A stretch of 64,000 nucleotides of DNA from the NCBI RefSeq assembly GCF_024707505.1, contig NZ_CP102605.1, positions 682,001-746,000 of the forward strand, in the 5' to 3' direction. Position numbers and translations under genes: made by a program. Numbering within the stretch: position 1 is the first letter of the stretch; each line of letters opens with the position of its first letter. Below the pieces are notes generated by a model, which was not told where the DNA came from, made no database searches, and saw only the letters and a program-made list of their open reading frames with translations. Positions 569 to 3,467 of this stretch are shown here, one piece after another. The DNA is from Pantoea sp. SOD02 (GTDB lineage: Bacteria; Pseudomonadota; Gammaproteobacteria; Enterobacterales; Enterobacteriaceae).

Positions 569-709
569 TGGTGCACCTCGTTATTGAGCGATAACGGATG
601 ACCCACCCGCTGTGTGGCAGTCATCCCCGCGCCTGCTTAACGTGCAGGCGATCGAGCAATGACCCACCGGGTGAAACCACGGTTGACAGCTTCTACTCAT
701 TTTCAGTCA

Positions 710-725
710 AGCAAAGCCTGTGCCA
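710..725 (-). promoter_or_regulatory. Sigma-54 promoter for the oxygenase gene
   Basis: Read on the minus strand, the sequence is TGGCACAGGCTTTGCT. It matches the TGGCACN5TTGCW consensus with the GG and GC dinucleotides at the right distance. The predicted transcript would start near 699, about 130 bases before the oxygenase ATG. NtrC-like sites lie about 80 bases upstream of that start. Confidence 0.75.
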
Positions 726-764
726 GCTCACGGTGCTCCGTTAAATCAACAAGTTAAGCCATCT

Positions 765-781
765 TGCACATCATGCCTGCA
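765..781. promoter_or_regulatory. NtrC-like binding site (weaker)
   Basis: TGCACA-TCATG-CCTGCA resembles the TGCACC-N5-GGTGCA NtrC consensus, with mismatches in the inner positions. It overlaps the stronger site at 778-794 by four bases and lies between the two divergent sigma-54 promoters. It is weak evidence alone and stronger as one of a pair. Confidence 0.4.
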
Positions 782-794
782 CAACGGCGGTGCA
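778..794. promoter_or_regulatory. NtrC-like binding site
   Basis: TGCACA-ACGGC-GGTGCA matches the 17-bp NtrC dyad TGCACC-N5-GGTGCA at 11 of 12 arm positions. It lies about 80 bases from one predicted sigma-54 start and about 135 from the other, a normal enhancer distance for both divergent promoters. Nitrogen-limitation control of both transcripts is inferred. Confidence 0.65.
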
Positions 795-888
795 AAAATG
801 GGCGCCTTGCATCATCAAAGATCAGCGGATGACGCAAAATCTCATCACATTTCAGATTAAACTCAATATTTTCATCGTGTTACATGAA

Positions 889-904
889 TGGCATGCGCTT
901 TGCT
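889..904 (+). promoter_or_regulatory. Sigma-54 promoter for the binding protein and deaminase
   Basis: TGGCATGCGCTTTGCT matches the sigma-54 consensus with one change in the -24 element and correct -24/-12 spacing. The start site would be near 915-917, leaving a leader of about 160 bases before the ATG at 1076. The intergenic stretch 569-1075 holds this promoter, the divergent promoter and the NtrC-like sites. I see no other gene in it. Confidence 0.75.
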
Positions 905-1075
905 AAATCCCCGTTGAGTATAAGCGGTCAGCGTGACAGCAGATTCACGCAGGACATTGCTCTACAGCATTAGCTGTACCTCGTCAGGGGACGATGCGAA
1001 TTACGCATCGTGAGCACGCCATGCGCCGCAACGCCCCTGATGACGACAACAAACTCAACGTTTATTGGGGGTTTT

Positions 1076-2051: not shown

Positions 2052-3467
2052 ATGAGCCAACTGTTAATCAAACACTGCGCCGCGATTCTGACCGGCGACA
2101 AACAGCAACCGCGCAGTAGCGCGCGCGATATTCGCATCCGCGATGGCCTGATTGCGGAGATGGGCGAGCTCGACACTATCACCGATGAAATCGTGATCGA
2201 CGCTCGCGACTGCGTGGTCTATCCCGGCTGGGTCAACACGCATCATCATCTGTTTCAATCGCTGCTCAAAGGCGAGCCGCAAGGGCTCAATCTCAGCCTG
2301 GGCGGCTGGCTGGCCGCGACGCCGTATCGCTTTCGAGGTGCCTTCGATGAACAGACGTTTCGCATCGCCGCGCGCGTCGGCCTGGTCGAGCTGGTGCGTT
2401 CTGGCTGCACCACCATCGCCGACCATCACTATCTCTACTGGCCAGATATGCCGTTTGATGGCGCAGCAATCCTGTTCGATGAAGCCGACAAGCTGGGCGT
2501 GCGCTTCGTGCTGTGTCGCGGCGGTGCCACGCAAAGCCGTGGCTTAGAGAGCGACTTGCCCACCGCGCTGCGCCCGGAAAGCTTTGACAGCATGATGGCC
2601 GATGTCGATCGGCTGGTGGCGCGCTATCACCAACCGCATGATAGCGCGATGCGCCGCATCGTGATGGCGCCGACCACCACGCTGCACTCCACCACGCCGC
2701 ATGAACTGCGCGAAAGCGCGCGCCTGGCACGACAACTCGGCATTCGTCTGCACAGCCATCTGTCGGAAACCGTTGATTACCTCGACGCCGCACGCGCTAA
2801 ATTCGGTATGACGCCGCTGCAATTTTGCGCCGAACACGACTGGATTGGCGACGACGTATGGTTTGCGCATCTGGTGAAACTGCTGCCGGAAGAGATCGCC
2901 ATGCTGGGCGCGGCGGGCAGCGGTATCGCGCACTGCCCGCAAAGTAACGCGCGTCTCGGTAGCGGCATTGCCGATTTGGTGGCGATGGAGCTGGCGGGCG
3001 TAAAGATCTCGATTGGCGTTGATGGCGCGGCCTCGAATGAGGCGGCGGATATGCAAAGCGAAACCCACGCCGCCTGGCAGCTACAGCGCGCACGCAAAGG
3101 CATGCTGGCGCAGCCGCGCTATGCCGGTGGCACTTTTGAAGGCGGTGGCGATGCCGCCAGCATCGAAGATGTGGTGCGCTGGGGCACATCCGGCGGCGCG
3201 CAGGTCTTGGGTTTGAACACCGGCCGCCTCGCACCCGGCATGGCCGCCGATATTGCCGTCTATCGCCTTGACGATCCTCGCTATTTTGGCCTGCACGATC
3301 TCGCCATTGGCCCGGTGGCCAGCGGCGGACGCGCCAGTTTAAAAGCGCTGATCTGCGCAGGAAAAGTGCTGATGCAGGATGATGTGATTACCGGAGTGGA
3401 TTTGTCGGAACTGGGCCGCGACGCTGCGCAAGCGGTAAAAACCTTGCAGCAGCGCGCGGCGGTGTAA
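2052..3467 (+). CDS. 8-oxoguanine deaminase-like amidohydrolase
   Basis: This 471-residue amidohydrolase belongs to the ATZ/TRZ, guanine-deaminase-like group. Metal and catalytic residues are visible: H64/H66 in VNTHHHLFQ, H236 in LHSHLSE, H273 in WFAHLVKL and D324 in IGVDGAASNEAADM. The last motif is what I associate with bacterial 8-oxoguanine deaminases, which convert 8-oxoguanine to urate and ammonia. The ATG at 2052 follows the binding-protein stop closely; an upstream in-frame extension overlaps that gene and is rejected. Isocytosine or another aminopurine could be the true substrate. The divergent oxygenase and NtrC-type control agree with use of an oxidised purine as nitrogen source. 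Confidence 0.82.
   Translation: MSQLLIKHCAAILTGDKQQPRSSARDIRIRDGLIAEMGELDTITDEIVIDARDCVVYPGWVNTHHHLFQSLLKGEPQGLNLSLGGWLAATPYRFRGAFDEQTFRIAARVGLVELVRSGCTTIADHHYLYWPDMPFDGAAILFDEADKLGVRFVLCRGGATQSRGLESDLPTALRPESFDSMMADVDRLVARYHQPHDSAMRRIVMAPTTTLHSTTPHELRESARLARQLGIRLHSHLSETVDYLDAARAKFGMTPLQFCAEHDWIGDDVWFAHLVKLLPEEIAMLGAAGSGIAHCPQSNARLGSGIADLVAMELAGVKISIGVDGAASNEAADMQSETHAAWQLQRARKGMLAQPRYAGGTFEGGGDAASIEDVVRWGTSGGAQVLGLNTGRLAPGMAADIAVYRLDDPRYFGLHDLAIGPVASGGRASLKALICAGKVLMQDDVITGVDLSELGRDAAQAVKTLQQRAAV

Follow-up and report, generated by a model that had tools for sequence, protein, structure and literature searches.

A probable divergent nitrogen-scavenging cassette in Pantoea with predicted sigma-54 promoters placed next to xanthine riboswitches

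Analysis of 64,000 nucleotides from Pantoea sp. SOD02 (the whole stretch is referred to here as the window) led us to a divergent nitrogen-scavenging cassette that probably responds to two inputs, nitrogen limitation turning it on and xanthine turning it off. Judging from the sites present and from the classes to which the elements and genes belong, we put the probability of this reading at about three in four. The window lies on the second contig of the 5.15-Mb genome, a replicon of 927 kb whose five top plasmid matches were all Pantoea megaplasmids. On the minus strand, the cassette encodes a 2OG-Fe(II) oxygenase of the isopenicillin N synthase type (positions 2-568, truncated by the window start; Pfam PF03171 and PF14226). 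On the plus strand, it encodes an NMT1/THI5-type ABC substrate-binding protein (1082-2044, PF09084; start 1082 taken from annotated relatives, with 1076 as the other choice), followed by an amidohydrolase-superfamily deaminase of the isoxanthopterin-deaminase type (2052-3467; NCBIfam PRK12393).

An Rfam scan of positions 500-1150 detected the xanthine riboswitch aptamer (NMT1 RNA, RF03054) on both strands, above the gathering score of 36 in each case. One aptamer occupies the leader of the binding-protein gene (911-967, plus strand; 49.9 bits, E 4.4e-10) and the other that of the oxygenase gene (649-703, minus strand; 45.7 bits, E 6.3e-9), the latter being also present in Pantoea relatives. 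An earlier note on this DNA had not noticed the two riboswitches and had not foreseen feedback by xanthine. No further xanthine riboswitch was found anywhere in the genome. The riboswitch is patchily distributed, with RF03054 exceeding its cut-off in 2 of the 369 genomes drawn evenly from the class, in 23 of 392 drawn from the family and in 17 of 398 drawn from the phylum. The NMT1 motif was reportedly first described by Weinberg in 2017. Downstream of the plus-strand aptamer we propose a putative expression platform (981-1071), in which a helix 981-990/1034-1043 and the GGGGG at 1067-1071 would compete for one CCCC stretch; in foldings of both leaders, pairing of the ribosome-binding site and the preferred fold shifted with the 3' end chosen. 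As stated in passages of Yu and Breaker (2020, PMC7373994), the class is an OFF switch whose other members bind xanthine or urate and repress, and xanthine or urate methylated at N1, N3 or N7 is not accepted by the aptamer; isoxanthopterin was among the compounds bought by these authors for structure-activity tests.

The window was searched for sigma-54 promoters with the 16-bp pattern TGGCACGNNNNTTGCW. Only two matches with at most one mismatch were found, TGGCACAGGCTTTGCT at 710-725 (minus strand) and TGGCATGCGCTTTGCT at 889-904 (plus strand), each with one mismatch, so that the two outward promoters lie exactly where the earlier note had put them. The match counts by themselves show no excess beyond chance, with 19 sites of up to two mismatches in the window against 19.9 expected, and 76 sites of up to one mismatch genome-wide against 53 for the reversed pattern. 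Both promoters were, however, kept in Pantoea SO10, BRR-3P and At-9b, and the spacing between the -24 GG and -12 GC elements was conserved in the orthologues. Weak as bare matches, the two promoters are made credible by this conservation together with their fixed distance to riboswitches in relatives (see below). Between the 16-bp match and the T that precedes stem P1 lie exactly 10 nt in each leader. Usual sigma-54 promoter geometry sets the start position relative to the 16-bp element, which places the predicted starts at 915 (plus strand) and 699 (minus strand), 1 nt before stem P1 in both cases, and each message would thus begin with its aptamer. A gene for the sigma factor itself, rpoN, is present in the genome.

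The pairing of promoter and riboswitch was examined across relatives in the best 80 of 363 deaminase loci. A covariance model of our own was built from 32 aptamers and used to scan 87 sources, and 124 of its 125 matches (84 sources) were analyzed, one match at E 0.19 being left out. Because the model included only five flanking bases per side, the promoter lay outside it. Among the best 80 of 363 PRK12393 loci, 77 had a model match and 35 had two or more. For 124 of 124 aptamers, the best sigma-54 match within the last 150 nt preceded the model start by 6-11 nt, in four of them in a tie with farther sites. At least 8 of 12 sigma-54 positions agreed in all 124, compared with 3.4% of shuffles; agreement at 9 or more positions was seen in 112 (0.5% of shuffles) and at 10 or more in 91 (0.06% of shuffles). 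When leaders were collapsed at 80% identity, 77 of 77 still reached at least 8 of 12. The alternative of chance sigma-54 matches, with transcription of the leaders from sigma-70 promoters, would suit the near-background counts in window and genome, but at the other tabulated offsets at least 8 of 12 positions agreed in only 1-17 of the 124 aptamers, which makes this explanation highly improbable.

Leaders detected through the riboswitch alone formed two more sets. In the family draw, limited to leaders fitting a regular expression, 27 of 27 distinct leaders had at least 9 of 12 positions at 6-11 nt, 18 of them repeating leaders among the 124. In the phylum draw the same holds for 17 of 24 aptamers; two more, both in genome G962, had 9-10 of 12 at 21-25 nt, and the remaining five had no match of at least 9 of 12, two of these having 8 of 12 at 22 and 28 nt. 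These 24 aptamers come from 31 listed places, after six in the window's genome and two others of its genus or family, and one that had no locus, were set aside; both G107 aptamers were counted here as well as among the 124. The promoter count does not include two riboswitch matches from the class draw that fell below the threshold (G217, G316). Given 17 of 24 in the riboswitch-only phylum set, the sigma-54 link seems to be common rather than universal, whereas in the deaminase-bearing lineages the comparison of leaders argues very strongly for it. Among the papers available to a literature search, none had both 'xanthine riboswitch' and 'sigma54'. In the portion of its main text available, Yu and Breaker (PMC7373994) names no sigma factor, and in the available part of a xanthine riboswitch crystal-structure paper no mention of sigma54 or pterin was found.

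The aptamers also fell into two subtypes by the base preceding CAUUGC, A or U. In the DNA, this base was A in 72 of 84 deaminase-strand aptamers and T in 34 of the 40 aptamers of the opposite strand, which is the oxygenase side in divergent loci; the remaining bases were unread or G, with one A. So consistent a difference near the ligand pocket could alter P2a pairing or specificity.

Two overlapping NtrC-like dyads had been proposed between the promoters, and only one of them held. The dyad TGCACAACGGCGGTGCA at 778-794 (plus strand) fits the searched pattern exactly, scores 12 of 14 positions against the consensus TGCACYANNNTRGTGCA (class criterion, an upstream TGCAC-N7-GTGCA) and is kept in SO10 and BRR-3P; counted from its centre, the two aptamer models lie 125 nt and 83 nt downstream. 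The leader of At-9b has a better dyad, 13 of 14, at another place. The weak dyad at 765-781 (plus strand) has two mismatches and is not kept in relatives, and finds no support as an NtrC site. As with the promoters, matches to the dyad pattern with up to two mismatches were no more frequent in the window than expected (32 versus 35.6). In dissimilar leaders, dyads of at least 12 of 14 were found in 21 of 77 (0.4% of shuffles) and of at least 11 of 14 in 54 of 77 (3.4% of shuffles). All ten Pantoea leaders reached a score of 12, these coming from six source loci in which divergent pairs can share one dyad. Of the 66 representatives outside Pantoea and the window, ten had a dyad of at least 12 of 14, including 2 of 20 from Acinetobacter, and none was seen in the representatives of Citrobacter, Enterobacter, Pluralibacter, Mangrovibacter, Franconibacter and Duganella. 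Since such dyads are rare outside Pantoea, control in those lineages may depend on weaker sites or on a different activator. With ntrC present in the genome, an NtrC input appears well supported by the leaders in Pantoea, and in other lineages it is suggested only by weaker sites.

The deaminase scored 751 bits against PRK12393 (cut-off 543), and failed the 8-oxoguanine deaminase model (NF006055/PRK08203) with 383.8 bits for a cut-off of 532. Of the genes named in the earlier note, the oxygenase (2OG-Fe(II)) and the binding protein (NMT1-type) are confirmed, as is an amidohydrolase, and 8-oxoguanine-deaminase-like as a functional label is not. No protein in the genome exceeded the cut-off of the 8-oxoguanine deaminase model. 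The window enzyme is 63.2% identical over 465 residues to 2PAJ, which we take to be isoxanthopterin deaminase, and shares NTHHHLFQ and APTT with it. A paper by Hall in 2010 is said to deal with this enzyme, and a library screen of it reportedly turned up only pteridine substrates. Among 81 cluster members (eight of 86 loci had no deaminase frame in the ORF clustering and stand outside this count), 77 carried APTT or APTS and three paralogues APCS, and L086 was unreadable. The APCS of these paralogues matches that of 3HPA and 7WW2, in contrast to APTT in the window deaminase. Of the three, the one beside the cassette of Pantoea At-9b (L012:11570-12928) exceeded the PRK08203 cut-off, and those beside the cassette of another Pantoea (L024:11465-12823) and about 6.5 kb from that of Alkanindiges (L029) were judged by motif. 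The L012 and L024 paralogues lie on the strand opposite to the deaminase transcript.

The closest fetched relatives of 2PAJ, at 80-84% identity in tblastn, were Paraburkholderia and Caballeronia genes (L095, L098-L100); a closer relative was sought in plasmid records, where the best was only 64.8% identical. The operons of these Paraburkholderia and Caballeronia genes contain a riboswitch match of modest score, 31-37 bits with our model (E 1.7e-5 to 4e-4), and also encode a binding protein, a Rieske oxygenase, an ATPase and a permease. By class, then, the sequence comparisons place the deaminase in the isoxanthopterin-deaminase type (PRK12393/2PAJ). Sargasso Sea enzymes of the 2PAJ family deaminate isoxanthopterin and pterin-6-carboxylate, according to a passage in PMC5270733.

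Two loci deserve separate mention. In a Pantoea that lives as a symbiont in the stink bug Euschistus servus (L086), the frame of the binding protein could not be recovered intact downstream of the riboswitch, and those of the deaminase and the oxygenase were short, owing to cassette decay or sequencing error. A locus titled Chryseobacterium (L027) has a deaminase 81% identical to that of the window and the gene order of Citrobacter L026, and is perhaps a mislabelled assembly.

The whole oxygenase gene, read to the left of the window (L009:14591-15568), encodes 325 amino acids with both isopenicillin N synthase-type domains (DIOX_N and 2OG-FeII_Oxy). The iron/2OG pattern HTD..HRV..RxS was present in 57 of 59 cluster members. 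Its best solved relative was thymine dioxygenase, a methyl-oxidising enzyme (109.5 bits), with ethylene-forming enzyme and TraH close behind in score.

Neighbourhoods were called by tblastn over the whole stretch, with thresholds of at least 150 bits for transport genes and at least 200 bits for oxygenases. In the best 80 of 363 loci, a binding protein was found in 79, an ATPase in 76 and a permease in 75, and the oxygenase slot held a 2OG enzyme in 51, a Rieske enzyme in 22, both in none and neither in seven. Weak relatives of the 2OG oxygenase (92-118 bits) were seen in three Rieske loci (L069, L072, L073). The closest solved relatives of the Rieske enzyme were NdmA (136 bits), SxtDIOX (128), SxtT (125) and NdmB (106). 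This alternation of 2OG and Rieske enzymes in the same operons lends some support to the proposal that a non-haem iron oxygenase acts in place of a known hydroxylase; that the window enzyme is a non-haem iron oxygenase was borne out. HpxO, allantoicase or PuuE was encoded in the fetched stretch in 21 of the best 80 of 363 loci (19 Acinetobacter, one Alkanindiges and one Prodigiosinella), and a xanthine dehydrogenase gene in none of these 80 deaminase stretches.

Fifteen stretches from 14 genomes were chosen by the riboswitch alone. At identities of at least 55%, ten of them encoded the 2OG oxygenase and four the Rieske enzyme, the fifteenth having an oxygenase relative of 30% identity only. 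A PRK12393-type deaminase was present in three of the 15, namely L191 and L192 (62-63% identity) and L187 (NCBIfam). The scanned frames also included CDA-fold deaminases (L182, L184, L187) and a PRK07583 amidohydrolase (L193), and one stretch, L195, had a xanthine dehydrogenase gene. We had considered the deaminase as the core of the riboswitch regulon and rejected it: with the enzyme in only three of 15 stretches, versus a 2OG or Rieske oxygenase in 14, the oxygenase is the core. The common logic is an importer, a deaminase of varying fold and an oxygenase of one of two folds, upstream of xanthine.

Elsewhere in the genome, a chromosomal stretch encodes guanine deaminase, xanthine dehydrogenase and HpxO, each of which exceeds its cut-off, and xanthine should therefore be usable. 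A sigma-54-like site with two mismatches, TGGTACAAAAGTTGCA, lies at L161:8876-8891, roughly 30 nt ahead of the open frame of chromosomal hpxO; by count such sites occur at chance level (3 versus 5.7 expected), but hpxO may share the nitrogen input.

The cassette has no ATPase or permease of its own, and the nearest permease in the genome, 58% identical, belongs to a second cluster of this replicon, at a distance of about 300 kb (G000:C2:373158-381790; L160:6158-14790). This cluster comprises an FAD oxidoreductase, a permease, an ATPase, an NMT1 binding protein, a creatininase-family protein, an amidohydrolase (PRK07583-like, below the cut-off of that model), a PDR/VanB-type reductase and a LysR regulator, and a scan of it with the riboswitch model gave no match. 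In Klebsiella and Rahnella, a cluster like it is joined to the cassette. The second cluster may supply the ATPase and permease that the cassette lacks. Similar operons were seen in Comamonadaceae (L178) and Pseudosulfitobacter (L180). Plasmid pADP-1 has a relative of the second-cluster amidohydrolase of Klebsiella at 43% identity (L179:8947-10278), where it adjoins an ABC transporter and the cyanuric-acid genes of this atrazine plasmid.

The proposed mechanism is as follows. Under nitrogen limitation, phosphorylated NtrC bound near 778-794 would activate sigma-54 RNA polymerase at both promoters, a step read from the sites, their conservation and the presence of rpoN and ntrC. The binding protein would bring in an exogenous guanine- or pterin-like base, perhaps handing it to the ATPase and permease of the second cluster. 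The PRK12393 deaminase would free ammonia and the oxygenase would move the product towards xanthine, which chromosomal xanthine dehydrogenase and HpxO, whose genes are present, would then degrade. As xanthine or urate accumulates, translation from both transcripts would drop, since each is predicted to start within about 1 nt of an aptamer of this OFF-switch class.

Regarding the substrate, a pterin such as isoxanthopterin is our tentative first choice. This assignment follows from homology to 2PAJ, the activity attributed to that enzyme and the passage in PMC5270733 cited above. An N-methylated guanine such as 7-methylguanine comes second and seems unlikely, and an oxidised or plain purine, third, is less likely still. 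The methylated-purine route would import a 7-methylguanine-like base, deaminate it to a methylxanthine and demethylate this with the oxygenase to xanthine, the riboswitch ligand. The methylxanthine demethylases NdmA and NdmB are two of the solved proteins nearest to the Rieske alternative, thymine dioxygenase is the best solved match of the 2OG enzyme, and deaminases of other folds occupy the slot in other loci. Moreover, an aptamer that rejects N-methylated xanthine and urate (PMC7373994, in the passages available) would report the demethylated product only. On the other hand, ethylene-forming enzyme and TraH score nearly as well as thymine dioxygenase against the 2OG enzyme. The screen of 2PAJ, which reportedly gave only pteridines, may also speak against this route, and we regard it as improbable, though not as much as the salvage of an oxidised purine.

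In that last scheme, the deaminase would convert 8-oxoguanine to urate, and hydroxylation of xanthine by the oxygenase would likewise yield urate. It draws on the relatedness of the PRK12393 and PRK08203 families (384 bits), on xanthine and urate being the riboswitch ligands, and on the Rieske alternative being 28.6% identical to a Rieske protein encoded beside HpxO in Prodigiosinella, which is taken to be HpxD-like from its position. Against it, the deaminase lies below the PRK08203 cut-off, cassette deaminases carry APTT or APTS where the 8-oxoguanine types carry APCS, separate paralogues of the latter type occur near the cassette in L012, L024 and L029, and guanine deaminase and xanthine dehydrogenase are already in the genome. 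We consider it quite unlikely. The prediction of a nitrogen-limitation regulon for salvaging an oxidised purine accordingly survives in part: nitrogen limitation and a purine-like base are favoured by the presence of rpoN and ntrC, the recurring sigma-54 promoters and the urate genes in 21 of the best 80 of 363 loci, whereas the 8-oxoguanine chemistry is not supported, given the grouping of the deaminase with 2PAJ and the separate paralogues in three relatives.

A bacterial pathway from pterin to xanthine passes by isoxanthopterin, oxylumazines and xanthine-8-carboxylate, and we know of no genes assigned to it. It is possible, if doubtful, that sigma-54 promoter and xanthine aptamer form one inherited unit and that the cassette belongs to a nitrogen-limitation regulon converting pteridines to xanthine. 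If so, this would give that old pathway a genetic basis, with the 2OG or Rieske oxygenase as pteridine hydroxylase, and would explain a xanthine OFF switch on genes preceding xanthine. Speculatively, the pteridines could be isoxanthopterin from insects or products of folate or pterin breakdown; in part of a review (PMC11121863), isoxanthopterin is described as a possible storage-excretion form of nitrogen.

Returning to the two-input cassette, our preferred reading, the xanthine riboswitch class would gain a likely transcriptional context, nitrogen limitation acting via sigma-54, and a physiological reason, namely that scavenging stops once xanthine-level nitrogen is available. In addition, a widespread deaminase is shifted off its 8-oxoguanine label, and a short substrate list is offered for an oxygenase family to which Yu and Breaker assigned no function.

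The cassette can be compared with several known systems. The Klebsiella hpx purine system serves in the use of purines as nitrogen source, and its Rieske pair HpxDE acts before HpxO. By this description, it resembles the cassette in its nitrogen-source role and in an oxygenase step before HpxO, and differs in using a Rieske pair instead of the 2OG enzyme of the window. Prodigiosinella L059, in which a Rieske/reductase/HpxO set lies some 6 kb away from the deaminase, is like Klebsiella hpx in this respect; HpxDE is described in a passage of PMC7373994. The available part of PMC9513972 reports a Variovorax/Agrobacterium pterin deaminase, an instance of bacterial pterin deamination, with an endoribonuclease gene downstream, a neighbour reminiscent of the RidA gene beside the linked second-cluster amidohydrolase in Klebsiella and Rahnella. 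Kinship of this pterin deaminase to either amidohydrolase, likened here by description, is no more than a lead. Isoxanthopterin deaminase 2PAJ is alike in its NTHHHLFQ and APTT motifs, the function of the window enzyme being a prediction from sequence. The closest counterparts are the xanthine riboswitch operons of Yu and Breaker (2020), which, in the passages of PMC7373994 available, have the same aptamer as here (above gathering score in the window) and the same kinds of genes, a pcbC-type dioxygenase, an NMT1/TauA binding protein and a PRK12393 amidohydrolase, with opposing aptamer pairs already in Hydrogenophaga. Compared with those operons, the cassette described here has predicted sigma-54 starts, an NtrC-like site between them and a deaminase placed with 2PAJ.
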